A stretch of 64,000 bases of DNA. Source: Moringa oleifera (taxonomy: Eukaryota; Streptophyta; Magnoliopsida; Brassicales; Moringaceae). The stretch covers positions 3,410,001 through 3,474,000 of the forward strand of contig JAJFZO010000407.1 of the NCBI GenBank assembly GCA_021397835.1, read 5' to 3'. The notes beneath the pieces are model-generated. The model worked only from the letters and a program-made list of their open reading frames with translations. It was not told the DNA's origin and did not search any database. This document shows, piece after piece, positions 3,461-52,043 of the stretch. Positions within the stretch are counted from its first letter, which is position 1, and the number at the start of each line of letters is the position of its first letter. Made by a program: the position numbers and the translations under genes.

Positions 3461-6400
3461 TAAAAAATTATTCAATTAATCAATACAAACTATTTAACTT
3501 TTTATTTACAAATTTATTGTCTTTAATTATTTTTAAGTTAAGCATAAAAAATTTTAAATTATACTTATGACTTTCTAATTTATTTTATTTAATTTTTATT
3601 AAAAATTTAAAAATATTATAAAATAATTTTTGGTATAAATTATCTTACAAATATAAAAAATTACTTAAATTATTGTTATAACAACAAATTAAAATTTTTT
3701 AATATTAAAAATTAAACTATCAAAATTTTAAAAAAATTTATGTAAATATAACTCGTTAGTTAAAAATTATTTAAATTTATAGAGATAGACTCATATAAGA
3801 TGTAAAATTTATTTAAATTATTTTAAAGATATTTTTAAAAAATTAATAAATATACAATTAATGTAATCAATATATCAATACTCAAATTAAAAATAAATTT
3901 ATTTTAGTATATTCTTTTATATTTTAAATAAAATAAAATAAATATTTATGTATAATCTAAAATTAAAATATTCCCACTACAATGAAATTTAAGTTTCCAA
4001 GTATTCCACTTTTTAATATTTTCTTTTAATATAGTTAACTAACAACATATTATATGCACTAAAAAAATGAAACCCAATTCACATATGTTAAGAAAGGCTT
4101 ATTAGGGATACGAGCCTTAAATAACTCCGTTAATTATGGAACGTATTAGTATTTTCGTTACTTGTGTGAAAACGAGATTTCCCCAATCTAATTTCAACAT
4201 CACTTAACTAATTAATCACGACATAATTAGAGACTAAATGCTCAATTTTTCTTGTGATGTTGAACAACATGATTGCATAATGAGGTCCGGTGCTTTGATA
4301 GATCATCAATGTATTAATTATTACAAATTTGGTTTAGGGTTGATGTAATTAAGAATTGGTTTAATGTTGCGTTGAGGAGTGAAAAACATCTAAAATGAGA
4401 TTAGGGTTTCTTTTAAGGCTTAGATTAATTGATGTGGTCAATTTGAGGGATAAGACAATGATAGAGACCAAACAAAGGCAAAGGAATCTTAGATTTTGCC
4501 TACTAGCTAGGTATAGGTAAAAGTAAAATCTTTTAGGTCTTGTTTTGTTTTACTTGCTACCCTTTTGCTTGTTTATGGGGGGAAAGATTCTTTTTTTTTT
4601 TTTAAAGCAAAATTCTTGCTATTAATTAGTATATATTTATGGTAAATTTAGTATTATTAGATAATTTGTTAATTAATATAAAAATAAAAATTTAAATTAT
4701 ATATATTTAATTTAAATCATGAAATATTTATTAGATCAATTATATATTTAATCTTTTAATTTAGTCTAAATCAAACATTAATTCAAAAAATTATGAAAAA
4801 TTTGTTACTAAAATATCTTTAAAATCACTTAAATAAAATTTATATTTTATTTTAAGCTCATCTCTCAAATTTAAATAATTTTAAACTCCTAAATTATTTT
4901 TATAAATTTTTTGAATCTTTGACTATATAAAATTAAAATTATATATATATGTATATTCAGTGCTTAAAAAATTTTAAAATATTTTTACAGCTATAAAGAA
5001 TTCTAAGTCAAAATTCATCATATAATATCTCTAATTTTTATTTTTTGTAAAATTCAAATTAAATCAAACTTAATCACCAAATATACAATTAATTCAATAA
5101 ATATTAATTTCAATGCGTAAAATAAAAATAGATATAATTTAGAATTTTTTTATGTTTACCCAAATTTAAATTTTATAAGAGAAAGTATTTTTTATTGAAT
5201 TATTAAGTTTTTTATTAATCTTTTCAAATCATGACATTTAATAATAAAAAATTCATACTATATATTATATTGTAGTAATTCATTTAAAGTAATAAAATAA
5301 AATAAAAAAATATTTTTTAAATTAAAAAAAAAGGAAAAGAAGAACTTATCACAACTTTATTTGTTGCATGAAAGGGGAAAAAGAGATTATGATGGAGAAT
5401 GAAAGGACATGCAACTAAATGTATGATTATGTTGAAGTTTGCAAAAGAAGCAAAGGCTTAAAGGCATAATTAGAGAAATTATATTGTTTGCTATAAGATT
5501 AAACCCACAAAAAGAAATTTAAAATTCATAAGAAAAACGAGTGCTTCTATTCCACCCACTAATGTTTTGATTTTGATATTTCAGCTTATATAATGACGAC
5601 AATTCAATAATTTATTTATTTATTTATTTTAAAATAAATAAATATGCCCCATATAAATAGTAGCATTTGTACATTATGTGTATAGAGAAAACCTTAATTT
5701 CAGTGTAAAAGGAAGGAAAGCAAAAGGGATCATAAAAGCAAGGAAATAATTGATGTCTCCAAGCTCTCTCACTAAAGCTGATTAAAGTTAGCTCTTCCAT
5801 GATTGAAGCCTCTCTTTCTTTTTCTTTCTTCTCAAAATGCTTTTAATCAAGGCATCCTAAGGTTTCTTCATTGGCCCCACCACTAAGAACTTCAATCAAT
5901 CTTCATGTCTCCTCCTCACCATACCCTACTCAATCACAAGATTTCCTTTTTTTTTTTTTTTTCTCGAACCAACCTAATAGAATTTAAGTTATAATTACGA
6001 GAAATTAGAATTTTCTTATGCCAATTGTCAATATGATCAACCGATAAATTATAATTATGAGTGATGAGATTCGTCTTAATCATGTTGATAATATGACCGA
6101 CCGATGATTTATAATTATGGGTACCGAGAATTTTCTCTTATTATTGTTTATCATGTGAAAGAATTCATAATTGGAAGTGTCGAGACAAAATCTTTTTTCC
6201 ATTTTATTGGTTTTATTTCTTTTCCCAATCTTCTCGAAGCAATGAAGAAGTAGGATGCAAGTTTTTATTATTATTACTTACACAAAGTTTAATCAAACAA
6301 AGATCACAATTTTTTTTACTCATTAAATTATGTCATTTTTTTTGAAAAATAATATGTAACAATTTAATAATTATTTATTATTATTATAAAATATACAAAA

Positions 6401-12112: not shown

Positions 12113-13183
12113 TCAACTCTTCAAGCCTGCTGCCTCCCTCTCTACCTTCTCCGCAAACAGCTTTGTTGCAATCATATTGTCAACAAAATATTCCCTATAA
12201 GGGTGATTTCTTGGAACAAGCTTTCGAAACTTCTCAAATTGTTTCTCTGCCTCATCTTTCTTCTTCAACAGTGTATATATAATGCCCTGACACAGATACG
12301 GCCTAAAATCCCTGGGTTCCTCCTTCACCAGCTCCTGATAAACCTTCAGAGCCTCAGCATGGTTCCCCTCAATAACCCGAATTTGTGCTACCAATAGCTT
12401 GAAGTCCCTGAAATCCTTCTGCTTCTTCTCCTTCTTGCACTTGTTCATTGCCACCTCAATTCTCTTCTCCAAATCCTTCAACTGGTTACCCGATTCTGAA
12501 TAAGCCATCACAAGCCCGTGATAAGCCTCCACACGAAGAGGGTCTTTAGCTAAAATTTCCTCAAACCCATTTTTTGCAGAGTCAAAATCTCCACTGTAGC
12601 TATAAATTTGGGCTTTCAATAACGGCCATTCCTGCTCATCGGGCTCCAGTTCGATCAAACGCTCGATAACTTCTATGGCTTCTAGCAGCTTGCGCGATTT
12701 GATCCTAACCTCCATGAGGGACCGTAGAGCTTCGACGTCGTCAGGATTACGAGCCAAGTGCTGCTCAATGATTCTCTCTTGCTCTTCAAACGACAAATTA
12801 TCAAATGATTCTTTGGTGGCATCCACGGTAGAAGATGTTGCAGTGGCGACCGGGACAGCAATTGCGTGTTTGGTGTGGAACCGCATGAAGAACAATGCGG
12901 CCGCCGCTACCGCGATGCAAGTGGTTTTGAGGAGAGGTGACGATACGGGGTTTAGCGTCTCGAGAAGTGAGGTCTTAGAAGTGTGAGATTTTTGGTAGGG
13001 TGGGTTCGAAGAGGATACTGACGATGATAGCGCAGCTCTGAGAGAGAGCAAAACCAAGGATGATGATTTAGGTCGGGTCCTGAAGGAAAGGGAAGACAAG
13101 GGTTTTGCGAACGACAGACGATGGTGATTTAGGGAAGTATGAAGAGGTTGGTAACGGCAGTGCACTTTAGCGAGAGACTCCAT
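12113..13183 (-). CDS. SLOW GREEN 1-like chloroplast TPR protein
   Basis: Intronless 356-aa protein. Residues 1-70 are rich in Ser, Leu and Arg with few acids, as in a chloroplast transit peptide. Residues 84-101 (TTCIAVAAAALFFM core) form one hydrophobic segment that may anchor it in a plastid membrane. From about 120 to 340 it is made of helical tetratricopeptide-like repeats (for example EEQERIIEQHLARNPDDVEA, EALKVYQELVKEEPRDFRPY). TPRs bind other proteins. SLOW GREEN 1 in Arabidopsis is a plastid TPR protein needed for early chloroplast development; this match is by family look. From its place near AFC1 and DapF it may instead be the counterpart of At3g53560, another TPR protein of this type. 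A GA run (13194-13214) lies just before the start codon. Confidence 0.85.
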   Translation of the reverse strand: MESLAKVHCRYQPLHTSLNHHRLSFAKPLSSLSFRTRPKSSSLVLLSLRAALSSSVSSSNPPYQKSHTSKTSLLETLNPVSSPLLKTTCIAVAAAALFFMRFHTKHAIAVPVATATSSTVDATKESFDNLSFEEQERIIEQHLARNPDDVEALRSLMEVRIKSRKLLEAIEVIERLIELEPDEQEWPLLKAQIYSYSGDFDSAKNGFEEILAKDPLRVEAYHGLVMAYSESGNQLKDLEKRIEVAMNKCKKEKKQKDFRDFKLLVAQIRVIEGNHAEALKVYQELVKEEPRDFRPYLCQGIIYTLLKKKDEAEKQFEKFRKLVPRNHPYREYFVDNMIATKLFAEKVEREAAGLKS

Positions 13184-15465
13184 TTCTATCCTGCGAGAGA
13201 GAGAGAGAGAGAGGGCTAAAACCCTGATGACGATAACGGAGCGAGCACAGAGTCGGAAGACGATAGTTCAAAACCCTTTCCAGACTATGCGGTTGTTCAT
13301 TTTCACGTTGGGCCATCGATTGATCATTCAAAACGGTATCGTTTATATGACCAAGGCTAAGCCCGTCTACCTACCCCAAACTCTTAAGCCTAGACCCAAT
13401 TACCTCCCAGATCCAAAAAAACAAAGGGTAGGGCTCCATCCATTTCTTAATTTATTAGATCATATTACCGAGTTGCTGATTAATTAACATTAATAAACAT
13501 AAAAATATTTATATTTTCAGAAATATAATTATATTAATTTAATTAAATTTCATTTAAATTAATATAAATTTTGTTATGCTCTTTTCTCTTTTTTATTTTG
13601 AAAGTGCTTACTTTAACATTCGAAGATGAACAACTCATAAAAAAAAAAAAAACCTTCAATTTTCTGACAAAAAGTATTTAAAATAAAAAAGATATATATT
13701 TTTTAAAAAAGAAAAAATAAAAAATTTAAACTATATATTTTGTTAAAGTGGTGCATTTTGAAACATCAATTAGATTAATTGTACATTTTATATTTTAATA
13801 TAATTAGATTTAAATTTATAAAAAAATAAAAAATATTAAAGTTAAAAATATTATAAAATAAAATTTGAATTAATTTTTTTCAAAAGTATTTCAAAAACTT
13901 AAATTTATTCAAATTAAACAAATAAATTCAAAATAAAGTATGTATTTCGTTTAAGTTTTTTTAAAATTATTTCAATAATGATAACATCATTAATTTTTTA
14001 TAAGTTAAATTTTAATTTAAATAAAATTAAATAATTAAAAAATAATTAAATCTATATTTTTTTTTTTGAAAAAATCAAGGGTTTCTAAATGGATTGTATT
14101 GGGTTAAATTTGTCTTGGAATCCTGATCCTTCACTACGAGGCCTGATTCGCACTGGATGAAGCCTTCTTGATCTTGGGCTTAGCTTAGATTTATTTACAA
14201 ATTCATATAATCTTATTGTAAATTTAAATTATAATAAATTGAATTCCACGACCCAGCGACTTGTTTGGAATCAGGTGGATGTGCCTTTCAGTGGCTGGTC
14301 ATATCATACGCATTAAATGAATGGCAGGCAAACACATCTTTATTAGTGAGGCATGGGTGTTGAAGTTTTTTTAAAAAATAGTGGCAAGTGATAATTTAAT
14401 AAAATTAAAATAAATATTATATTAAAATTTAAATTTTATTTTATGTATTAAATAAATTTTAATATTTTAAAAAATAACAAATAAAATTTTAAATTATTAA
14501 TTTGAATCAAAATAAATTTTATCTTAAATGATTTTGAAAAATTAAACATATTTTTATTTTAAAAATATTTAAAAATAATACAAAATAAACTATATATTTA
14601 TTTCAAATTTTATTTTAATATTCAAATAATTTATAATTTAAAATTATTTTTATAATTTTTATTCAAATATTTTGTAAAAATATTTTCAATTTTTAATTTT
14701 TTTACAATGATAGCTTGATATTTTTTATTTTTAAAAAATTTAAATCAGAATTTATGGTATAAATTTTTCAATTTTAAAAAATATTGATTTTTAAAAATTT
14801 TTGATTCAATTTAATTTAAATTAATAGTTCAGATTTGACTTTATATTTTTTAAAATAAATTTTAAATTGATAATCTACAATAATAGTGACAAGTTTTATA
14901 TAATTTTTATTTTAAAGTTAATGATTAAAATTGATATTTACATATTTTTATTTTATATTATCATTGTACGAAAACATCCCTCCACCGGATCAGAAACCTT
15001 CACTTGAGTCGAAATCATCCGAAGATCCTTATCCGTCAATGTGGTGTAGACGACCCCCCAGTCACTGGAGAGACTCAAATCGAAACCAAAAAGCTTGGGA
15101 TAGTGACATGGACCCTTTGTGCTTTCAAATGGATCCCACGTGGATTTTATTTTCAAATAAAAAAGAAAAACAACCAGAAAATAACAAGGAAACAAGGGAC
15201 AAACAAGGCGGCGCCACGTGCGTGCACGAGGTGCCATGACGCCATGCAAGCACCACCCCTTCCTTGCCAACTCACGCCACTTGCCGTCACGGTTCCCCAA
15301 GACTACACTGCTGATGCGGCGTCGTTTCCTGTAGCAGACAGACCCAGACCCACTGGTTATCACCTAGCTAAGCTAAAGCTTTGATTTGTAGTCGTAATTT
15401 TTAGGAGCAAATCGTGGGTTGCTGATCGTGATCGTGATCGTGATCGTGATCGTGATCGTGATCGG
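13184..15465. other. Intergenic: TPR gene promoter, AT-rich DNA, then a GC-richer block
   Basis: 13184-13480 is the leader and promoter side of the TPR gene. 13480-14930 is AT-rich with no gene. 14990-15420 is GC-richer, with a G-box core CCACGTG near 15213 and the string GCGGCGTCGTTT near 15316. Open frames here are unlike known proteins on either strand. This block is downstream of the 1589-family gene and could hold its 3' UTR. Confidence 0.5.
15423..15465. repeat. Hexamer microsatellite (GATCGT), about seven copies
   Basis: Perfect tandem GATCGT units directly after the stop codon of the minus-strand 1589-family gene, so they would sit at the start of its 3' UTR, read there as GATCAC... 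units. Confidence 0.9.
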
Positions 15466-27067: not shown

Positions 27068-28705
27068 TTAGAGAATCTCTACTGGAAAATGGTTTATTTC
27101 AGTTTCCCTTATATGTCCAATTAAAAACCTCAAAACTTCATAAGTCTCATGCTTCTGGTGATGAGTTATGTCCCTAGTGACAAAAACATGAACTTTGCCT
27201 CTGATTTCAATCCAGCTGCAACCAGGAACCCTTTTCATGCCTTTATCCTTCATTTTCTTCCTTATTGTTGACACACTCTGCCATCTCCCTGCTGCAGAAT
27301 GTGCATTTGATAGCATTACATATGATGACACATCTGCAGGATCCAAGTCCAGGATCCTACGTGCTGCAAACTCACCCAACTCCATGTTCGAGTGAATCTG
27401 GCAGCCTCCAAGCAATGCCTTCCAAAATCCAATTCCAGGATCAATAGGCAAATCACGAAGAAACTCTTCAGCTTCCTTGAAAAGCCCTGACCGAGAGAGT
27501 AAATCAACCATACAAGCATAATGCTCAGGTTTAAGCATGTCGCAATCCTCAAGCCTTGCTTGATTAAAGTATGAATATCCCTCTTCAACAAGACCAGCAT
27601 GATTACAAGCCCACAGTAACCCAAGAAGGGTAACACTATTTGGTCTAAGTCCAGTGATCCTCATCCTCTCTAAGAGACTTGTGGCTTCCTCTCCTCTCCC
27701 ATTCTGTGCATAACCCCATATCAGAGCGTTCCAAGAAACAAGATTCCTTTCCTGAAGTTTATCGAATACCAAGAGACTATCTTCCATGCTTCCACATTTT
27801 GCATAAAAAGTAATTAGAGAATTGCCAACGAACATACCAGGAGTACCTAAGCACTTGACAGCAGAGGCATGTAAGCTTTTGCCCATGCCTAGAGCAGCTA
27901 TATTGGCAGCAGCACTGATAGTGGAAGTAAAAGTGGATTCAGTAGGCATCATCCTCTCTCTCAACATCTGTATAAAAAGATTCACTGCCTCCTCATTGTG
28001 GCCTGTTTGGCTATACCCACCAATCATGGCATTCCAGGACACAATGTTTCTATCTGGCATCTCCTCAAACAGCACCAGAGCATCCTCGAACCTCTCTTTC
28101 TTGAGGTACCCACATATCAGAGTTGTGTAGGAGACAACATTTGGCCTGTGGGTATCTTCAAAAGCTTTTTGAGCCTCCTCGATTGTACTAAACTTGGCAT
28201 AACTATTTAAAACCGCACTACCCACGAAGACGTTTGATTGAAGGCCCATCTTCATTGCACAAGCATGAAGTTGCTTGCCCAAATAAATTTCTCCCAGCGC
28301 AATCGATGAGCGAATTACAGTTCCAAATGTGAAGTCATTGGGCCTAATATCCAGAAAAAGCATTCTTGAAAAGAGACGTATAGCGTCTTCATAACGGTTT
28401 TGCCCAGCAAGGTTGCTGAGCATGGCTGTGGCCGATACCACATTAAACTCAGAAATTTCATCGAACAAATGGCCAGCATCTGGCGACTTGCAAGGTAACC
28501 CAGCGTCTGATTGAGAAGCTGAGGTTGCTGGCTCAGGGACACAGGCACGAACGCTCTGTTGATCAACAAGAAAGTTACAGCCTAAACTATGGGTATTTCG
28601 CAGTATGGTGAAGGACGGAGACAATCTACTTGAGGGTTTCATATCTGAATTTGAGCGGCTCTGGGCTCGGCCCCGCCTCGCTCGCCCACTGGTCATCCTG
28701 CACAT
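27068..28705 (-). CDS. E-class PLS pentatricopeptide repeat protein (At5g42450-like)
   Basis: Intronless 545-aa protein. Repeats include AMLSNLAGQNRYEDAIRLF, FVGSAVLNSYAKFSTIEEA, NIVSWNAMIGGYSQTGHNEE and NLVSWNALIWGYAQNGRGEE, alternating P, L and S types. The C-terminal part, GIGFWKALLGGCQIHSNMEL, then SSYVMLSNAHSAAGRWQSVS, then GCSWIEIRGKVHVFV, is the E/E+ extension; there is no DYW deaminase domain. Such proteins bind organellar RNA base by base, usually to specify C-to-U editing sites, and recruit a deaminase in trans. Resemblance to Arabidopsis At5g42450 is from memory. Two possible starts are close together (residues 1 and 4); a basic N-terminus would fit organelle targeting. Its start codon is 238 bp from that of DapF on the other strand. 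Confidence 0.92.
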   Translation of the reverse strand: MCRMTSGRARRGRAQSRSNSDMKPSSRLSPSFTILRNTHSLGCNFLVDQQSVRACVPEPATSASQSDAGLPCKSPDAGHLFDEISEFNVVSATAMLSNLAGQNRYEDAIRLFSRMLFLDIRPNDFTFGTVIRSSIALGEIYLGKQLHACAMKMGLQSNVFVGSAVLNSYAKFSTIEEAQKAFEDTHRPNVVSYTTLICGYLKKERFEDALVLFEEMPDRNIVSWNAMIGGYSQTGHNEEAVNLFIQMLRERMMPTESTFTSTISAAANIAALGMGKSLHASAVKCLGTPGMFVGNSLITFYAKCGSMEDSLLVFDKLQERNLVSWNALIWGYAQNGRGEEATSLLERMRITGLRPNSVTLLGLLWACNHAGLVEEGYSYFNQARLEDCDMLKPEHYACMVDLLSRSGLFKEAEEFLRDLPIDPGIGFWKALLGGCQIHSNMELGEFAARRILDLDPADVSSYVMLSNAHSAAGRWQSVSTIRKKMKDKGMKRVPGCSWIEIRGKVHVFVTRDITHHQKHETYEVLRFLIGHIRETEINHFPVEIL

Positions 28706-28943
28706 ATAGGAGCCCGAACGATATATATATTTAGTCTCTTTTCAAGTCCGGTTTGTAAAAATTCGTTTCTGGTTGAACCGATCGACCCGATAACCCGTTT
28801 CCTGCTGTTGGCTGTACTCACGAGTAGTCCAAGCCCCGTCCACTAGTCCAGTCCTTACTGTAACTGCAGGAGTTGGTGGCGCTCAAAGCCAAGACAACAA
28901 AACCCAACAAAACTCAAAAAGGGACGGACCCGTTGAAACAGCC
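28706..28943. promoter_or_regulatory. Compact divergent promoter between the PPR gene and DapF
   Basis: Only 238 bp separate the two start codons, pointing away from each other, so both leaders and promoters must share this DNA. A TATA-like ATATATATAT string lies at about 28720-28730, close to the PPR side. Confidence 0.7.
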
Positions 28944-40626: not shown

Positions 40627-40742
40627 GGACGAAATTGCCAAAATTGGCAGTTAGATACCGGTCATTTGGGAAAAAAACATGTTTTATTAAGTTTGGTTTT
40701 TTTAGCACTTAAATGTCTTGGAAAGTCAAAGATACCCTTGCA
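40627..40742 (+). repeat. Left terminal inverted sequence of the MULE
   Basis: It begins GGACGAAATT and ends AAGATACCCTTGCA. Read against the reverse complement of 49777-49889 (GGGGAAAATT ... AAATTACCCTTCACA) it stays in register over about 115 bp with few gaps; shared pieces include the AxCACTT block and the TACCCTT block. Identity by eye is modest. Confidence 0.5.
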
Positions 40743-41026
40743 AAAGACAATGATACCCTTAAAAATTAAATGAACTCAAAAATTTATGAGATTTGTCCGA
40801 ACACATTTCTTTTTTGGCGGAAAAATCTTTCCCTCTTTCGGCCACTCTCTCTCTTCGAGCTCTGTCTTTCTTCGCCCTTCCTTTGAGTTTTATTTCTTCC
40901 AATCTTTGTATCCAAGATCTATCAAATCAAGATCCCAAGAAGAAATCGAAGGCTAGTTATCTTGCGCAGAGAAAGAAGCTCGTGTTTTTGACAATATATT
41001 CTTCTTCATAATCAGACCGTGCTCGA

Positions 41027-44000
41027 ATGGGTAAAGAAGGTGACAGGTATACCGTTTAAAACTGTAATGTAGCTTAAAACCGTGAAGATTTCAGTTGTAA
41101 CTATTTATATCGTGATCTCCTCCTTTGTATTTCATAACATTGGTTGAGAATCGTGTCATGATCTTAGTTTCATGCATGTTTGAAAATCGTATCTTACTTT
41201 GTTTATCGTAACAAGTTTTCAATCGTGACTTATTTGATAACATCATTATGAGATTCGTAACATTCATAAAATCGTAACAAGTTTTCGTAACATGTTTTTC
41301 AATCGTGACTTATTTGATGAAATCGTAACTTAAGTGATGAAATCGTAACATGCGAAATCATATATTCGTCTTTGTTATTTAAAATGTTTTTTTTTTCATT
41401 ACAGAATCCGGATCATTATAACTTGGAATGGTGAGTGGTCCGAGTGTAGAGGAAGTTTTGAGTATATTGGCAGAGCCATCAAAACTAAGGGGTATGTTAT
41501 TCGGAGGGATTTGAAATATGTACAGTTGTTGGATTTGGTTAAATGTTGCGTGGAGGCTGATTTCTCTAATATTGATATTGTACTGCATACCATAGTAAGA
41601 TCTGAAAAAACTGCTGTCAAAATTGAGTTAAGGAATGATGAAGATGTTGAGTTTATGTTGTACGATGACAGTATAGTTCCACGTATAATTGTTGATTTGG
41701 TGCAGAGAAATTTTGTTGGAAATAGGCATGGTTTATGTGAAGGTGAAATTTCAGGAGGAGTTAATCCTTTTAACTCTTGTACGGGAAGTAATCCTACTGT
41801 GGAATTGGACGTTTATGGCCCCGAACCATTCATCCATAGTGATACTCCTGTTGACACTCAGCACACCGATGAGATAAATTTGGATGAACAGGTGGACTAT
41901 GATATTGGGTGTGAATACCCAATCATGGGAACTCAACCTACTCAGCCTACCAGTGAAGATCAATGTGAACTCACTGTAGAGGTAGAACTCGACAATGAAG
42001 CGGTGAATGAGAACTTACGTACTGTCCCACCTTATATCCCAGTTGCATGCCCAGAAGTACATAATAATTCAAATAATGGTGTTGTCAGACGATACAATGT
42101 GTTGGGTGCTGAATTATATAGTCTTACTCCGACTCCTACTATGGAATCAGTGACTCCGATTCATACCCTTACTAGAGGTCAGTTTTTCCCAAACAAGAAA
42201 GAGTTGAAGCGATTTTTGGGTATGCATGCATTAACTGAGAACTTTGAATTTAGAGTCACTAGGTCTAACAAATCAGTATTTGAGATTGCTTGTAGAGAAA
42301 GAAATTGTGCATGGAAGGTTCGTGCTGTGAGAGTTGCGCAAGGGCAATTCTTCCAAATTAGAAGGTGTGATTTGACGCATACTTGCACGGTTGAAGAGTT
42401 GCATCGACGACATCGACAAGCAAGTTCTGCTGTTATTGGAGAAATTGTAGCTCAGAGGTTGTCTACCAATGCTAGAATCATTAAGCCGAAAGACATCATG
42501 GGAGATATGAAAGAACTATATGGCATACAGATTTTATATAGTAAAGCTTGGAAGGCTAAAGAGTATGCATTGTCTCTTACTTATGGTGATCCAATTGAGT
42601 CATATCAACAATTGCCTTCATACTGCCACATGTTGCAAACTGTTAATCCGGGAACTAGGGCTCACATATGCATCGAGGATGGAACTAATCGATTTAAGTA
42701 TTTATTTGTGGCTCTTGGACAATCATTGAGGGGATTTCATTCGGTAATTAGACCGGTCATTGCTATTGATGCTGCTCACCTAAAAGGGAGGTTCCACGGT
42801 GTAATGTTTGTAGCGGCATGTAAAGATGGGAATGAACAGATATATCCAATAGCATTCGGTTATGGTGACTCGGAGAACTATGAAGCATGGGAATGGTTCT
42901 TAGGGCAGCTAAAAGAAGCAATTGGTTCAGTTGAAGACTTGGTTATTATATCAGATCGTCATGCCAGTATTGCAAAGGCCACTGCAAAGGTCTTTCCTAA
43001 TTCTTGTCATTGTTTATGTTCCTGGCATATGGCTCAAAACATAAAGAATAAGTTTAAGAGAGAAGATGTATCTAAGATATTTTATAGTGCGGCTAGGGCA
43101 TATCGAGAATCTGAATTTAATAAATTAATGACTGAGTTACAGGGTAATCACCCTAAAGCTTTTGAATATATCATGAAGGAAGATCCAAAAAAATGGTCAC
43201 GTGTGTATTGCCCCCGGAGACGTTATCAACTCATGACCACTAACATTGCCGAAAGTTTGAATTCATGTCTTCGATTTGCTCGTGAGTTGCCCGTTATGGC
43301 TTTATTGGAATTCATTCGAGATATGATGCAACGTTGGTTCTATGATCGATTGAAAAAAGCTAAGGCTTGGAGGTCACAACTCACAGAGTGGGTTCACTCA
43401 TTGATGAATGAGAGACAAAAAGTTTCATTACAAATGACGACTTCCAATGTTGATTGGAACGTTTTTTTAGTTAGGCACAAGGGTAAAGAGGCAGTTGTGA
43501 ACCTTATCGACCGTACTTGTACTTGTAGAGAGTTTCAAGCTGATCTTTTGCCATGTGCACATGCACTGGCAGCTTCCAGGTGATACTGATGGTTTTGTTA
43601 ATTTCATTATTCATGTTATTTTTTTCATTAACTTCATATGTTGTGTACTTTTTGCAGGGAACGTAATATTGATTTCATAACTCTTTGCTCTAACTACTAC
43701 AAACAGGATCAACTAGTAGCTGCATATGCTGAGCCGGTATATCCAGTTGGTGACAAGTCTGATTGGAATGTACCCGATGAAATCAAAAGAGTTGTGATAT
43801 TACCACCGAATAATGGTAATTCAGTAGGGCGTCCAAAGAAGCAGAGAATACCCTCTGGTGGGGAGAGGGCGCGTAAAAAAAAAATGCTCTAGATGCTTTC
43901 AATATGGGCACAATCGATTAACATGCTCGAATCCACAATATTTTGATGGGGTAAGCCACTGGCAGTCGTCAAATGTCCCTGATCAATTTCGTCGTAAATG

Positions 44001-44091
44001 CCGTAACTGTGGTGGAGTTGGTCATAACGCACAAACTTGTCAAATGCCTCACAAATTAAATTCACAAGATGATTGCACCATTGACTTATGA
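41027..44091 (+). pseudogene. MuDR-type MULE transposase with one frameshift near the C-terminus
   Basis: Exon 1 (41027-41046, MGKEGD), exon 2 (41405-43579) and exon 3 (from 43658) join in frame. Domains: a PB1-like N-terminal region (about 8-110), a MuDR DNA-binding region from FFPNKKELKRF (about 266-320), and the DDE transposase core with VIAIDAAHLKG near 461 and LVIISDRHAS near 523. A SWIM zinc finger follows at about 700-733 (CTCREFQADLLPCAHA). Frame 1 stops at 43892, giving 809 aa. Just before, a run of ten A (43874-43883) shifts the frame: two CCHC knuckles, CSRCFQYGHNRLTC and CRNCGGVGHNAQTC, lie in the next frame to 44091. All catalytic parts are intact, so a product lacking only the knuckles could still be made. 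The run length could also be a sequencing error. Confidence 0.85.
41060..41355 (+). repeat. Array A: TCGTAAC/TCGTGAC motifs in transposase intron 1
   Basis: Within the first intron (41047-41404), TCGTAAC occurs at about 41206, 41255, 41272, 41286, 41323 and 41343, with TCGTGAC variants near 41223 and 41303. Spacing is 14-32 bp. All copies are on plus, the sense strand of the transposase gene. Confidence 0.8.
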
Positions 44092-45131
44092 TAAATCATA
44101 GTAATTTTTTATGATATTGACGATTTTTAACTTCCACGGCTTCACATATTCGGATTTTAGGTTAGGTTTTTATATAGTTTCAATTGTTACATGCAGATGA
44201 GTGTACCTTATTTTTGTCCATTGAATTCGTAACTTGATTAGAAAATCGATTAACATGTTCGTACCTTATTTATTTTACGATACTTGTATATGAAATCGAT
44301 ATTGAAATTCGTAAATCATTATGAATTCTTAACTTGATTAGTTAATTATGAGTAACATTCGTTACTTGATTATGTATTCGTTAGTAAAATTCGTAACTTG
44401 ATTATGAATTCGTAACTTCATTATGAATTCGTAACTTGATTATGTATTCGTTAGTAAAATTCGTAACTTGATTATGAATTCGTAACTTCATTATGAGTTC
44501 GTAACTTTATAAGGAATTCGTACCTTGATTAGTAAATTATGAGTAATGTTCGTAACTTGATTATGTATTCGTTAGTAAAATTCGTAACTTTATTATGAGT
44601 TCGTAACTTTATTGTGAGTTCGTAACTTTATTAGGAATTCGTACCTTGATTAGTAAATTATGAGTAATGTTCGTAACTTGATTATGTATCTGAGATAATT
44701 GTATATGAAATCGATATTAAAATGAGGAAAATTCTTTATGAATTCTTATCTTGATTAGTTAATTATGAGTAACGTTCGTAACTTGATCATGTATTCGTTA
44801 GTAAAATTCGTAACTTTATTATGAGTTCGTAACTTCATTATGTATTCGTTAGTAAAATTCGTAACTTAATTATGAATTCGTACATTGATTAGTAAATTAT
44901 GAGTAAACTTCCGTAACTTGATTGATGAGTTAGAATCATATGGAGACGTTACCAAAATTCATAACATTATTAGTACATCATACATCTATTGACAAAAAAA
45001 AAAAACTGTTTCAATTGTAAAATTTGGCTTATATATACAAAATAATGTCATATACAATTGTAAAAATGTTATATACAATTCTCAAATGTATATACAAAAT
45101 GAATACATTGAATAAGAATAAAAAAATTTAA
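44092..45131. other. Noncoding centre of the MULE between two convergent genes
   Basis: No open frame of note. It holds array B and then about 200 bp of AT-rich DNA (44930-45131) with shared 3' ends. Transcripts from the two sides would meet here. Confidence 0.7.
44227..44920 (+). repeat. Array B: 19-bp tandem units with TCGTAAC core, after the transposase gene
   Basis: The unit ATTCGTAACTTGATTATGA recurs roughly 20 times. Clear cores are at 44391, 44410, 44429, 44461, 44480, 44499, 44518, 44550, 44582, 44601, 44620, 44639 and 44671, mostly 19 bp apart with some 30-32 bp gaps, and more to 44911. Variants include TCGTACC and TCGTTAC. A larger block (44518-44580 and 44639-44690) is itself duplicated. 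All cores are on plus. Confidence 0.92.
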
Positions 45132-48100
45132 TCAATGACTATCATCTACAGTGGAGTTGGCAAATATATACATTGCCATGTGATTTCTAATAATTGACAT
45201 ATCCTTGTCAGTGTATTTTAAATGTCTCCTAAGTAGTAAATGTTCTATAATATACAGCATGTGAGGACCACAATTGCCACTGCAAAAAAAAAAAATAAAA
45301 AATAAGAATAAGGAAAGACATTCACCAGAAAAAAATTTTATAATAACACATACTGGTAAAAAGACTTACCTTCTTCGTTGCTGAGGGACCTTGTTCTTTG
45401 GCTCCAAAGTGCATGAAAGTGGAAGATCCGGCATTTTGGCATCTGATTTCCGAATGAAATATCCGCCACTCGCCATATAGCTAGTTAGCATCCATCTGAA
45501 AGGATTTTGCTGCCGAATCCTCGCTTCAGTTGGTATCTCTTGACGGAATGAGTCAAAGACACGCAACGAGAATTTCCTCAGATCAATGACAACTAGGAGC
45601 CAGTGAGATCCGCCAACGTGGCAAGGAACCATCAGCTACATTAAATAATGTTCAAATATCATTAAGTACTCATAATATGGAAAAAAAGTATATAAATCAT
45701 TACTAATGAAGATAACTAACCTTATTTACAGTGTCCCAAGTAGGACAATCCCTTGAAAATTTACCTCGCACACGGTCTAGGAAATCTTCTTCCCATTTAT
45801 GCGCTTCAAAGTTCGAGTGTGCCGGAGGACAATCAGCATCTGGATCCTTCTGATATTCGTTGTAAATGTAATAAAATGCTGTCTGTAAATTTGAACAATA
45901 AAACAAAGTCAACAAATAAATTGAATAGAAAATCAGATAAATAGTCTTAATGATCAAGGGACTTACATATAGCCAAGGATCACAGATGCAGATATCTTGT
46001 GCATATTGCTCAGGTAGCTCCTTCTGCCTTCTCCGCAATATGTGCAAATATGCATCAATGTGCTGGTGTAGACATTAGAAAAGTGATATTATCAGTACTA
46101 TGAATATACGGAATCAAGGTACGAATTCTAAATTTAGTTACGATAATATGAAACATGTTACGATACTATGAAACATGTTACGATAATGTGAAACATGTTA
46201 CGAAATAAAGTTACGAATTATAATTTTAGTTACGATACTATGAAACATGTTACGATACTATGAAACATGTTACGATACTATGAAACATGTTACGATACTA
46301 TGAAATATGTTACGAAACAAAAGCATGACATTTAAGCAAGGAATAATAATGTAGTGCAAAAAATTGAAAACTTACAGAGTCATCGATCCACTCATCATTG
46401 TCGATAAGGGCTTTGAACCAGTCCACGCTCACTGAATGACCAATGCCTACGTTGCGGCTGAAGGAAATAAATAAAAAGAAACTGTGAGAAAAGAATTCAA
46501 AAAAATTAAATTAAAAAAATTAGTATGCAACACATATGCTATGCAATACTTACTATGACTGGCCCTTCATGAAGTCGTTGAATGCAGCGATGATCTTATC
46601 TGATATTTGCAACTTCGCGCTGACCATGTGAGTGGACTTGGCTTTCTTATGCCCAGTATGAAGCTCAACATATGGACTGCACAGTTGTCTTGACCGTTTA
46701 CGAGTCCTGACAACCGGCATCACATTGTCGGTGGCCTCAACTGGGACAAGGGCCAAGTCCCTCGCTGCCGTCCTCTTGGGTGACTCTGCAGATGGCAATT
46801 CTTTATCTACCACAGCAGGAGCCCCGAAGTTGTCACTGCATGGGAATGCAGTGACAACTTCTTCCATTGGCCCTGCAGTGGCTTCTGTTTCGTCGCATTG
46901 CCCTGCAGGAGCCAAGCCCTCTCGGGCTGAGTCTGCCATACCACCCTGAAAAAAAAACAAACAATGTACTGAATTAGAAAGTCATATTTAATACATACAT
47001 TTAATAATGTTCTAAAGAAACAAAAAATACAGTTGAAATAGATTAGAGAACTACCTCATTGGGAATTGGATTTGACATGGGTGGAGACGGGTCTCGGTCA
47101 CCAAATCCATATCCTTGTAGAGATAATTGGATGGATTTCAGGATCGCCATTTGCTCCTGATGGCGTCTTTCGTTGTCTGAGTCCATACGATTTACCTTCG
47201 CCTCGAGAAGTTCCAATTTCGACTCCATAGCTACGAGACGACGGTAAACATCTGGATCCCGTTCAACCCTTTCAGCGCCAGGTGCCTCCCGCTCAACATC
47301 CTTTTCCCTCAGGTCCGGCTCTGACTCGTCGACAATTCGTTCTTCTTCAGTAGGGATCCTCTCCCTTACCTTCAAAGTTTTGCGCAAAGAAGAAGACGAA
47401 TTTGTAGCCCTGATCCGAATGGGAGACTCTACCATTTCGTCATCCCGAATCGATGGTTGGCCGGGCACAACACTGTCTTCAACCCCAACATAGTATGGGG
47501 CTTGACGCTCGGCAGTAGTTGGCTTCAAATTAAGCTTAGCCCCCATCTGAAAATACAAATAAAGTTACGAAATTAAGAATGAATATACGAAAATGAAACG
47601 TTAAGGCACAACATAAAAATTAGAGAAAGAGGGCACGAAATTGAAAATGTAAGGCACGAAATGGCTGAATGAAGGCACGAAGTATAGAAAGAAGGTACGA
47701 AATTTAGAAGGAAGGCACGAAGTAGAGAAAGAAGGTACGAAATTTAGAATGAAGGCACGAAGTAGAGAAAGAAGGTACGAAATTTAGAATGAAGGCACGA
47801 AGTAGAGAAAGAAGGTACGACATTTAGAATGAAGACACGAAGTATAGAAAGAAGGTACGACATTTAGAATGAAGACACGAAGTATAGAAAGAAGGTACGA
47901 AATTACTTACACTGTTTGTGAAGATTTTCTTGCAATCTCCATTATGGGGCCTGCGATGGAACCTCCATCGGCAAATTCTTGGCAATGGCAAGTCGGATCC
48001 TGACAACCTCATGCCATGCATGTTGGTAGCAGGAATCACTTCAAATGCAAAAACCTGTGAAAAAATGAAAATGAAGTTATAATTGATTAATATAAAATTC

Positions 48101-48854
48101 AATGAAACTTTAAAAAATTAAAATAAAAAATTTCAAACAAAATCCTTACGTGTAATGCCCACACAAAGCCGTAAGCATTATAGCTCACCCCATCAGCATC
48201 CCTGATTCGATTTGCAACTGCCTTCTTGAAATGCGATATGGAGTTGCAGTAGACCCAGGTGCCCCATGGAAAGCCATTGAACGCCTCTAAATTGTCGACT
48301 AAATTAAACTGCCATGTAGGGACCTGCTGCCGCTCGTCGTGGCCTTTGATGAACCCGTTCAGCAGATACAACAACCCCAGCTTTAGTTTATCATTTTCAT
48401 CCTCAAACTCCCCTTGTAGTAACCTCGTCTTGATGCTACTACCAGTAACCTTATCCCTCCCCCCGAAATATTTGGCTAGGATACCAGATGGAGTAGCTTC
48501 AATATTCTCTGTATCCGGTAGCTCGCCAAACTTCAATCCGGTGATTAGGCAAAATTCCACTTTGCTGAAACGAACTTCATTCTGCCCAAGTCTGAACCAC
48601 ATTTCGTCCTCGCGGTTCTGCTGAATCTCCCGAAGTAGCAGATTATGGACAATAATCCCTGAGAAGTTAAAATCGGCGTGCAAATGTAGGAAATGCCCTA
48701 AGCAGGTCCCTCTGAATTTCTCCTTCTCAGAGTCATCCAAAATTGTCCTTAGAGTGGGGATGACATCATTGTCACAGTGCTTCAGTATCTTTCCAGTCTT
48801 CCACGACTCTTTGGGGGTCACATATGGCTTCTGAGAAACAGGGCTACTTGCCAT
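45132..48854 (-). CDS. MULE-borne DUF1985 - Ulp1-like cysteine protease (C48), possible VANC-like factor
   Basis: Nine exons join in phase with no stop or frameshift: 48150-48854, 47911-48054, 47055-47546, 46554-46945, 46376-46457, 45967-46062, 45721-45882, 45370-45635, 45132-45279; 828 residues. Residues about 50-235 look like DUF1985 (GHFLHLHADFNFSGIIVHNL, VRFSKVEFCLITGLKFGELP). The middle (about 285-575) is charged and low in structure, with a short coiled coil (AMESKLELLEAKVNRMDSD) and a basic RTRKRSRQL patch that may be a nuclear signal. The C-terminus is an Ulp1 protease: GGSHW with His702, VFDSF with Asp719, then PQQRRSGNCGPHML with Cys783. Ulp1 enzymes remove SUMO. Start chosen at 48854, just after a strong acceptor; the leader intron would be 48855-49550. 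Intactness suggests recent selection or recent arrival. Confidence 0.88.
46130..46320 (-). repeat. Array C: 20-bp units GTTACGATACTATGAAACAT in an intron of the ULP gene
   Basis: About nine to ten copies, 20 bp apart, in the intron between exons 46376-46457 and 45967-46062. Several units are identical, others carry ATAATA or lack the middle. On the sense strand of the host gene (minus) the core reads TCGTAAC, preceded by ATAGTA. Confidence 0.93.
47575..47905 (-). repeat. Array D: 20-bp half-units with GGTACGA/GGCACGA core in another ULP intron
   Basis: Within 47547-47910, GGTACGAAATTTAGAATGAA alternates with GGCACGAAGTAGAGAAAGAA, making a 40-bp higher unit of two 20-bp halves, about seven times. 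On minus the cores read TCGTACC and TCGTGCC. Adjacent copies are nearly identical, so this array expanded recently. Confidence 0.93.
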
Positions 48855-48904
48855 CTGCATTTGATCCAAAAAAAAAAGGGTCAAAAAATCGATTTTTCAT
48901 TCAG

Positions 48905-49165
48905 TAATTATGGTACGATTGTTTTAAACAAGGTACGATTTAATCAAATAAGTTACGATTTCAAACATATAAGGTACGATTTCAGAAAACAAGTCACGAT
49001 TGAAAACAAAAAAGGTACGATTGAAGCAAACAAGTTACGATTTAAAACAAATACGATACGATTTCAACAAACAAGGTACGATTTATGCAATCACAGTACG
49101 ATTGCATAAAAAACAGTTCCATTAACAAAATAGGTTACGATTTCGTTAAATAGATACGATTATTA
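48905..49165 (-). repeat. Array E: 20-21-bp spaced GGTACGATT motifs in the ULP leader intron
   Basis: GGTACGATT, GTTACGATT or GTCACGATT begins at about 48912, 48932, 48952, 48973, 48993, 49014, 49034, 49056, 49076, 49097, 49134 and 49153. Spacing is almost always 20-22 bp although the sequence between cores varies. On minus the core reads AATCGTACC/AATCGTAAC. Confidence 0.92.
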
Positions 49166-49776
49166 ATATTATGAGGTCACGAATGCGATGAACCGTTGCA
49201 TATAGATGCACCTAAGCCAAGAAATTGGAGCCAACAAACCAGTAAATGAAGACTTAAGCATGCGATACCTATATACATATACCCAGAGAAATTTTTGGGT
49301 TTCAATGTATCAAAAGAAAAATGAAAAATAATACACCGCGATATACCCAAACATCGCAGATTCCAAAACCAATACAAAATCAAAAGAAAATGATTTAAAA
49401 ACTATTGGAGAAGTTTTCAAACCCATAGAGTAAACTCAAAAAAATTAAGAAATCGTTGAATCAAATATGAGGGAAGGATTTCATCCGTGGGTATTCAATA
49501 AGCAAAAAACCCACAGAAATTTGAGTAGAATAGATGCTTGAAATCATACCTCTATTGTTTTTTTAGTGATTCAGTAGCTTGCGGATAGTATTGAGGAAAG
49601 GTTGGTTTACAACGAAAGCAAAGAAATCAACAGACACCGAATGAAGAGAGCTGAAGCTGAACGAGCTAAGTGGTAAAGCTTAGCGCCAGAATTAGGAGAG
49701 AGGGAAATAGAGACGTTTGAGATGTTTGACTTTTCATATTCTGCAGTTGGACAAGTAAGTAATTGTACATCTGCTG

Positions 49777-49889
49777 TGAAGGGTAATTTTGTCTCAAAGT
49801 ATCTAAAAAGTGTTAAAAACAAATACATTAGTAATGTTAGTTATTTACGTAAATATCCTTATACGGGTGATTAAAATAGAATTTTCCCC
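49777..49889 (-). repeat. Right terminal inverted sequence of the MULE
   Basis: Its reverse complement starts GGGGAAAATT and reaches TTACCCTTCACA, matching the layout of the left end. 49166-49776 between this end and array E holds the promoter and leader of the ULP gene; the donor of the leader intron is at 49550. Confidence 0.5.
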
Positions 49890-51518
49890 TAGTTTTTGCT
49901 GTTGTAGTCAAATCTGAGTCAGCATTACTCAATATTATATCGTGCCCATGTAATGACTACGCTTCACTTCCTTTCTCCTGTGCATTTTCTGTCTGAAAAA
50001 GGAGCTTTCCATGTCAAATAATGAATTGGGTACTAAAATATTCATTGTCTCTGACTTCCTCTTACCAAATTGTCCGCCCTTAAAAGGTCAATTTTTGTTT
50101 ATTGTACCCTGGAATGTGTCTGTGCTTCTGTGTGAACTTGTCTCGCAGTTTTTCCAAGTAGGCATAAGTCGGTTGGTGGGAAGGTGGTGGCTATCCAGAA
50201 ACCTTCCAATTTTTGTCTGTATTCAACTCATAATGCTAACTTGTCTCGCTACGAATAGTGAGCGCCAGGCTGCTTGGGCGTTGAAATTGTAAGCAACAGG
50301 CAATAAGCATTCAGAATTCAACTGCTGTAGCCGCCAGTTGCTCTTACTCGTTAAAGGTCTTACAGGTTGGTGAACCACTTGGTTTGTACCTCAATATTGA
50401 CTGCAGCTTACCTGACACACCATCTCACCCATGACTCCTACAGTTCTAACTCTTAACTTTTCACATTGCTCATATTTTATTTTATTAATTAATATTTCTA
50501 ATTTAACTTTTTGGTACTAAATAAAAATAAAAATAAAACAAATATAATTTTTATTGTTGTGGGTCAGATTTCTCATCCTAAACTCAATAAAAGATTGTCG
50601 GTACAGGTTTAGACATTTTTCTTAATTTAACCATCTTTTAAAGTATAAACTCCAAACCATATAAAATCACGTAATTATGATTAAAATAAATTTTATTTAT
50701 ATTGATGTCTAAAGTCATCTTTTAATTTATCTATTTTATTTTATTTTGATATAATCGTATGATTTTTAATTGATGTATTATTTAATTGACAGATAATATA
50801 TTAATTTAAAATAAGATAAAACAAAACATGATTATAAAATGGGATCTAACCTTAAAAAGAGTTGAAGCTTCTGCTTTTTCAGACAATTTTTATTTTTTTC
50901 TCTGAGGGTCATGGAAAATCAGAACAGCTACTTCCACTCAGATTTGTCCTTTGCTGTTTCACACTCACCCGTCTCACCACTTACGTCCCTGCCGCATCAG
51001 GCGAACGTGTTATGGAAGACAAAATTCTGCGTGACCCACGTTGGTTGGATAAGGCCGTGTTTCGTGACCACTTAGTCCGTTTAATCTTCGTGCAGAACCT
51101 TCTAATACAAGTTCGATGCTTCCAGGAAAAAGAAGAATCTCCACGAGGAGAGAACCCAGCAGCTCGCCTCCCGCGCGCGTTCGTCCGCGCACACCCATTC
51201 GGGTCGCTGTTTACATGGTCCCTTTGACTTATATAACCAGTGAATCTTAAACGCACGAGGAGAAACTTCTTTTTAATCCCCAAATTGCCCCTGGTTTTAT
51301 GAGACTGGAAGGGGGTAGTTTCGTCAATTTTTATTTCTTGAAATGAAAGATATGGGTAGTTTGGTAAAACCGTCAAATGGGACGGCCAGTCAAATTTCTC
51401 GACTTGGAAAACCTATATAAGTACCGTTAGTTATTACGCTTTCTTCATCTTCCTCGCAAACCCTAATTCTCATAGTATTCGTATTAAGTTGATATCTTCT
51501 CTGGGAAGTCGAGTAGCT
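49890..51518. other. Intergenic: MULE right flank and ZAT11 promoter
   Basis: No gene. Two TATA-like strings lie upstream of ZAT11: TATATAA at about 51230-51236 and at 51414-51420; the nearer is 105 bp from the start codon. TTTGAC (W-box core) near 51222 and a CGCG-rich stretch near 51172 are of the kind found in stress-induced promoters; their use here is inferred. Confidence 0.5.
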
Positions 51519-52043
51519 ATGAAGAGAGGCAGAGAAAACGGAGGAACAGAAGGATTGGACTTGGCGAAGTGTCTCATGCTGCTCACTCAAGGTCTGGAAA
51601 CAAAACCCAGAAGCCACTCGTCGGCACCGACCAACGAAGCCTTCGAATGCAAAACCTGCAACCGCAAGTTCCCGTCGTTCCAGGCTCTCGGTGGTCACCG
51701 GGCGAGCCACAAGAGGCCGAGATTAGAAGGAACTGATCACCAAGTGAAGTTGCTCAGCTTGGTGACTTCCAAGCCTAAGACGCACGAGTGCTCCATTTGC
51801 GGTCAGGAGTTTGCCATGGGACAAGCTCTGGGTGGCCACATGAGGAGGCACAAAGCTGCCGTTGTCGGCACGAACCAGAGCTTGCCTCTGTTTCCTGTGG
51901 TTTCTTGCTTGCCGGTCTTGAAAAGATCTAACAGCAGGAGAGTGTTTGGGTTGGACTTGAACTTGACTCCATTGGAGAATGATCTGGAGTATACGTTCGG
52001 AAAGATGGCTCCCAAGTTTGATCCTCGCCATGTTACAGTTTAG
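51519..52043 (+). CDS. ZAT11: C2H2 zinc-finger transcriptional repressor, ZAT11-like
   Basis: Intronless, 174 residues. An L-box-like LDLAKCLMLL lies at 13-22. Two plant-type fingers follow: C44-x2-C47 with QALGGH (55-60) and H64, and C91-x2-C94 with QALGGH (102-107) and H111. The EAR repression motif LDLNLTP is at 135-141, followed by LENDLEYTFGK, which fits Arabidopsis ZAT11. C1-2i ZAT proteins act in the nucleus as stress-induced repressors. The first ATG of the frame is used; the frame is open a little upstream but has no earlier ATG. Its place next to KIN-5B repeats the Arabidopsis order At2g37420-At2g37430, apart from the transposon lying between them here. Confidence 0.93.
   Translation: MKRGRENGGTEGLDLAKCLMLLTQGLETKPRSHSSAPTNEAFECKTCNRKFPSFQALGGHRASHKRPRLEGTDHQVKLLSLVTSKPKTHECSICGQEFAMGQALGGHMRRHKAAVVGTNQSLPLFPVVSCLPVLKRSNSRRVFGLDLNLTPLENDLEYTFGKMAPKFDPRHVTV

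Follow-up and report, generated by a model that had tools for sequence, protein, structure and literature searches.

The window analysed here, 64,000 bp of the Moringa oleifera genome, contains a MULE that is probably of the VANDAL/KIU type and probably has its own sequence-specific anti-silencing system, with a CpG-containing motif distinct from the motifs of VANC21 and VANC6. The reading of one of its two genes as VANC-like is well supported by a DUF1985 domain, a match to VANC21, a predicted fold, purifying selection and motif arrays kept across subfamilies of the element. A sequence-only reading of the window had proposed such a pair of a VANC-like protein and its own, different motif, and the domain, the modelled fold and the kept arrays point the same way.

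By analogy with the known systems, we infer that the minus-strand gene would give a VANC-like protein (DUF1985 plus an Ulp1 protease), that this protein would bind the motif, and that methylation would be removed through the binding. The DUF1985 part would recognize the core TCGTRMC, for which the wider family has TCGT[A/G][A/C/T]C, and may make a further T-rich contact some 10 bp downstream. The dense, one-way arrays of the introns and the intergenic region would hold many protein molecules. The element would then lose its silent marks, and both genes would be expressed.

The element and its two genes

The whole MULE occupies positions 40628..49889 of the window (9,262 bp, no strand assigned). 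The left end was defined as the point where 30 copies cease to share sequence, and the right end was obtained from 7 copies. No terminal inverted repeats were found: exact inverted matches between the two terminal 150-bp segments reach at most 8 bp. The flanks of the left ends are distinct in 28 of the 30 copies. Two pairs (L028/L029 and L034/L035) have a common flank, and thus each pair is probably one insertion present on two contigs. The 9-bp target duplication is exact in four of six copies checked, although in one of those four it is a run of A; one of the six has no duplication, and that of the window copy is imperfect.

The window lies on contig C13, and genome-wide counts refer to the 279.5-Mb genome. 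At least 40 scored copies, including the window's, have a transposase exon with 87-100% identity. At least six of them are listed at 100%, therefore the family moved recently. The genome contains 144 scored DUF1985 exons (63-100% identical). Among 40 scored left ends, 34 are matched, as judged by eye, by a listed DUF1985 exon at a distance of 6-9 kb in the expected direction; at least two of the other six (on C23 and C501) are at contig ends. The use of non-autonomous copies as a test of the cis role was dropped, as a clear gene-free set is absent among these 40 left ends.

Both gene models were placed by eye from splice signals. The MuDR-type transposase gene (41027..44090, plus strand) consists of a short first exon (41027-41046) and two further exons (41405-43580 and 43659-about 44090). 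Its Pfam matches are MULE (5.8e-20), DBD_Tnp_Mut (5.1e-12), SWIM (1e-06) and also zf-CCHC_6. The frame of the window copy is broken ahead of the zinc knuckle. Of 30 copies, 13 have an open exon 2, and in 7 of the 23 judged among these 30 loci the frame is open through to the zinc knuckle.

The VANC-like gene (45133..48854) is on the minus strand, opposite the transposase gene on the plus strand. The spliced translation of its nine coding exons gives an 828-aa open frame, in which DUF1985 is nearer the N-terminus and Peptidase_C48 (Ulp1) nearer the C-terminus. Single exons match PF09331 (DUF1985) with E 1.9e-26 and PF02902 (Peptidase_C48) with E 7.1e-07. The Ulp1-like protease exons (45133..45635, minus) were recognized by Pfam and by the spliced translation; in the PDB the larger one matches Dub1, SENP1 and SENP2 weakly (best E 0.0014), and by eye GSHW, FDS and GNCGPH in these exons resemble the His-Asp-Cys triad. 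VANC21 (9lnj) is the sole PDB match of the DUF1985 sequence. According to structure prediction and comparison, the fold predicted for the DUF1985 exon (48150..48854, minus) resembles VANC21 in complex with its target DNA.

The DUF1985 exon is under purifying selection. Eight subfamily members compared with the window copy have dS of 0.9-1.9 and dN/dS of 0.08-0.13 in all eight cases. Counting against selection is the dN/dS of 0.61 between L065 and L066, both of which have stops. A protein comparison found no close relatives of the element proteins or of the PPR gene of the window. Almost all named DUF1985 matches belong to Acer, Dipteronia and Xanthoceras (36-54% identity). Matches of the PPR gene are scattered over many eudicots.

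Motif arrays in the window and in the genome

The exons of the element had been described as apparently free of the motif, and the counts bear this out: TCGTRMC occurs 61 times in the 4,148 noncoding bp of the element and is absent from the 5,114 coding bp, while first-order Markov resampling of each part yields about 1 on average and at most 5 in 200 runs. The remaining 54,738 bp of the window contain 8 occurrences, and the motif is enriched in the element family compared with the rest of the genome.

The sites form five mirror-polar arrays, as the sequence-only reading had it: only plus-strand sites are in A and B, and only minus-strand sites are in C, D and E. Array A (41151..41349) lies in intron 1 of the transposase gene and has 10 TCGTRHC sites, 8 of them TCGTRMC (41206-41349); its start had been put at 41060 and is in fact nearer 41150. 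Array B (44227..44865, 19 sites mostly at 19- and 32-bp spacing) is located between the genes, after the transposase gene. Later introns of the VANC-like gene contain array C (46118..46315, 11 sites) and array D (47564..47900, 15 TCGTRHC including 13 TCGTRMC, mostly 20 bp apart). Array E (48912..49182) has 12 TCGTRHC, including 10 TCGTRMC, mostly at 20-21-bp spacing. It is upstream of the ATG exon, in a probable 5'-UTR intron with an acceptor placed by splice signal and a donor near 49550 placed by eye. These locations agree with those given earlier, where E was assigned to the first intron of the minus-strand gene. The polarity can be described either as inward from both ends or as sense to each gene, and the data fit both descriptions alike. 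The terminal 500 bp at either end of the element contain no sites. In CACTA elements transposase sites are subterminal repeats concentrated near the two ends; such a layout was considered and rejected for this element.

Spacing was analysed in 15 representative arrays, five from the window and ten from subfamilies. The spacing of 19-21 bp claimed for the arrays other than A proved to be dominant and not uniform: it accounts for 93 of 155 neighbour spacings of up to 60 bp, with a second mode at 13 bp (20 of 155) and some spacings of 17-18 bp. Within the window, B alternates between 19 and 32 bp, C has one spacing of 13 bp, D has one of 68 bp, and E has 41, 59 and 42 bp. Protein binding on one face of DNA, suggested on the basis of this spacing, is therefore only partly true, because the 13- and 17-18-bp spacings do not fit it and phase coherence is maximal at 9.7-10.4 bp and lower at 10.5 bp. 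Spacings within 1.5 bp of whole turns make up 0.55-0.70 of neighbour spacings vs 0.30-0.34 if uniform, in a set that includes the 13-bp mode and non-independent units. Helical phasing at 10.5 bp was rejected as a general rule. Sasaki in 2022 reportedly described many such systems with helical periodicity of motifs.

T is frequent at positions +11 and +12 from the first core base (mean 0.82 and 0.81 of sites in the 15 arrays vs 0.42 in the background), and 56 of the 67 window sites have TT there. Array B of a subfamily element is an exception (0.15). This pattern, which was noticed post hoc in the same 15 arrays, suggests a possible second protein contact about 10 bp from the CpG.

The same organization is seen in other copies. 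In 58 loci of copies and subfamilies, some of which overlap, there are 1,384 TCGTRHC sites in 98,404 noncoding bp and 8 in 139,650 coding bp. Strand use is not random: 101 distinct array sequences have 1,079 sense sites and 0 antisense sites. Seventeen loci have sites on both strands; in three of them a minus site is followed to the right by a plus site, and those plus sites are all exonic. Across subfamilies the motif is kept in place and strand while the spacers change, in line with what had been supposed from the window. A second full element (L059+L073, C13:1623200-1632300), with a DUF1985 exon of 84% protein identity to that of the window, has 46 TCGTRHC sites, with plus arrays at the places of A and B and minus arrays at those of D and E. 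The place of C holds one minus site, and three plus sites are in exons. In its array B, the units are 183 and 53 bp long and unlike those of array B of the window. Unit lengths found by TRF across the window and subfamilies include 20, 40, 41, 51, 53, 60, 103, 121 and 183 bp. Thus target repeats change fast between related elements.

The core was also recovered de novo. TCGTACC is the first 7-mer in the D/E region of the window and in L060-L064 and the second in L059, and TCGTATC is the third in L065 and L066. When arrays were anchored on any CpG, the majority sequence was a TCGT core in 15 of 15, with flanks that vary by array type; positions adjacent to the core are partly kept within a type.

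Genome-wide, TCGTAMC forms 2,256 same-direction pairs with a gap of 4-30 bp (1,161 + 1,095) and 7 facing pairs. About 14 same-direction pairs would be expected by chance, assuming that outward-facing pairs are as rare as facing ones. A reversed-pattern control (362 + 344) lacks CpG matching, and the facing-pair count is the better control. Among the first places listed on contig C1, nearly all same-direction pairs are, by eye, in element-like clusters.

Selection on the core and alternative explanations

The sequence-only reading had attributed the arrays to selection and not to chance satellites. This claim stands between subfamilies; in recent copies selection is not visible for array A and weak in the case of B and D. 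Aligned arrays A-D were compared by their pairwise differences, array E being present in the window copy alone among the family. The core differs slightly more than the spacer in array A (0.044 vs 0.037), so that within-family constraint is negative there; it is weak in B and D and clear in C. Protection of the core in recent copies is therefore not claimed here. Weak protection fits drift of most inserted copies, and it fits satellites too.

Evidence for selection on the core comes from the comparison between subfamilies: little of a neutral noncoding sequence should survive unchanged at dS of 0.9-1.9. Deamination of the core CpG affects 3 of 57 sites in the window and 7 of 84 in the D and E arrays of L059-L062, which have an open DUF1985 exon. 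The counts are 13 of 43 in L063-L064 (with DUF1985 stops), and 10 of 17 and 8 of 18 in L065 and L066, respectively (stops in both). In the window's own family they are 138 of 813 for young copies and 40 of 78 for old copies. Thus long-separated open lineages kept the core better than dead copies did.

Neutral minisatellites are an alternative that we consider improbable. Slippage would have amplified units containing the word by chance, and inheritance and homogenization would have kept it. In agreement with this, array length shifts fast (19, 20, 19, 23 and 20 sites in array B of L009-L013, with transposase exons listed as 100% identical), the core of array A is as variable as the spacer or more, and core-adjacent flanks are common within an array type. 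However, the core is common to five arrays with different units and is kept in subfamilies at dS of at least 0.9 despite changed unit lengths and spacers, it is absent from a tandem repeat (75 bp) of a subfamily element, and its CpG is less deaminated in open lineages than in dead copies. The core could also be a transposase binding site that unites both ends of the element. The motif points inward from both sides, and an element without terminal inverted repeats needs other marks for its transposase; yet the site-free 500 bp at each end and the location of B, C and D deep inside the element make this very unlikely, and the relative solved with target DNA belongs to the DUF1985 protein, the one covered by the structure search.

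First introns are a usual enhancer location, and A and E each occupy the first intron of one of the genes, which would suit binding of a host transcription factor or enhancer activity, with some other role for the DUF1985 protein. Only 7 facing pairs genome-wide and the element-like clustering on C1 indicate that arrays of the word are not common in the host, and the element itself encodes a homologue of an array-binding protein; we give host binding a very low probability. The least probable of the explanations considered is action of the word in RNA, for example in splicing or transcript retention, given that it is in sense orientation in both genes. The sense-only sites of the 101 distinct arrays and the intronic location of four of the five arrays by the gene models are what it would predict, but about five independent arrays would be co-oriented by chance with a probability of about 1/16, array B is past the stop codon of the transposase, and same-orientation arrays have been published for VANC21, which binds double-stranded DNA (PMC5735166).

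Relation to known anti-silencing systems

In Arabidopsis, the motif of VANDAL21 and its anti-silencing protein VANC21 (Hiun) is YAGTATTAY, repeated in tandem in dense same-direction arrays that lie mostly in introns and in other noncoding DNA (PMC5735166). The Moringa element is likewise a MULE with a DUF1985 protein, similar to VANC21 in sequence and predicted fold, and with short motifs in dense same-direction noncoding arrays. It differs in its motif, TCGTRMC, which contains a CpG, and in the Ulp1/C48 domain of its protein. DUF287, marked for VANC21 in PMC5735166, is absent from the Pfam matches here, and the ORF lists suggest that a third gene like VANB is absent. VANDAL6 of Arabidopsis, with VANC6, has the motif AGTTGTCC or AGTTGTAC, likewise in tandem repeats (PMC5735166). 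The proteins are related, and both motifs have two forms differing at the second-last base, whereas the core differs (TTGTAC in VANC6 vs TCGTAC). Kaonashi (KIU) elements are non-TIR MULEs with an Ulp1-like protease gene opposite the transposase (PMC2528002, PMC6117577). The element shares with them this gene arrangement, the lack of TIRs and the 9-bp target duplication, and differs from KIU as published in host and motif. According to a 2026 review, Ulp1-carrying VANC genes recognize motifs of their own family and induce family hypomethylation (PMC13317346, citing Sasaki 2022); the review gives the function of the protease part of DUF1985-Ulp1 proteins as not known.

Since the core, unlike the motifs of VANC21 and VANC6, contains a CpG, the system may read the methylation of its own targets. 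Methylation of the core CpG could block binding, and silent copies would be locked, or it could be tolerated or preferred, and silent copies would be attacked. An oriented DUF1985-Ulp1 chain on the arrays, with the T-rich contact one turn downstream, would bring a SUMO protease to silent chromatin. We regard this extension as tentative and rather unlikely.

The motif arrays are now tied to a DUF1985-Ulp1 protein, and the VANC idea is extended to another plant, where one genome offers a motif, a protein and many graded subfamilies. This subfamily series (TCGTAAC, TCGTACC, TCGTATC) suits the study of drift of a protein and its target. The CpG of the core permits a direct question of whether such proteins bind CG-methylated silent DNA, on which the motifs of VANC21 and VANC6 are uninformative because they have no CpG.

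T-rich positions and the subfamily element

Most core sites (TCGTRHC), in noncoding arrays A–E of the window as well as in the subfamily arrays, have T at positions +11/+12 counted from the core start, and TT occupies both positions in 56 of the 67 sites of the window. This preference for T is lacking in array B of the second full element, which belongs to another subfamily (L059+L073, C13:1623200-1632300). T at +11/+12 is a possible second contact, one turn away from the CpG.

L059+L073 carries a 75-bp tandem repeat (98% matches) at 4472-4711 in window orientation, in the stretch that separates array B from the VANC-like gene; the core is not present in this repeat. The position of array C is represented in this element by a single core site.

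Transposase frame and surroundings of the window copy

The transposase frame of the window copy (43659-44090) is broken ahead of the zinc knuckle. A stop precedes the zinc knuckle in 16 of the 23 judged copies, the other 7 being open. The copy L014 (C3:7971657-7976817), with its left 3 kb 99.8% identical, lacks about 1.4 kb from the 3' part of the transposase through array B and retains arrays A and C.

According to Pfam, host genes around the window element encode a TPR protein (12116-13267), ribosomal protein L23 (24981-25475), a PPR protein (27071-28741) and a C2H2 zinc finger (51360-52040).

Copies and subfamilies in the genome

Two copy pairs, L028/L029 and L034/L035, have common flanks (60/60 bp). 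Some of the small contigs may thus represent a second haplotype, which would slightly inflate the number of copies. The 144 scored DUF1985 exons of the searched genome range in identity from 63 to 100% and many carry stops, which indicates that several VANC-like subfamilies have passed through the genome.
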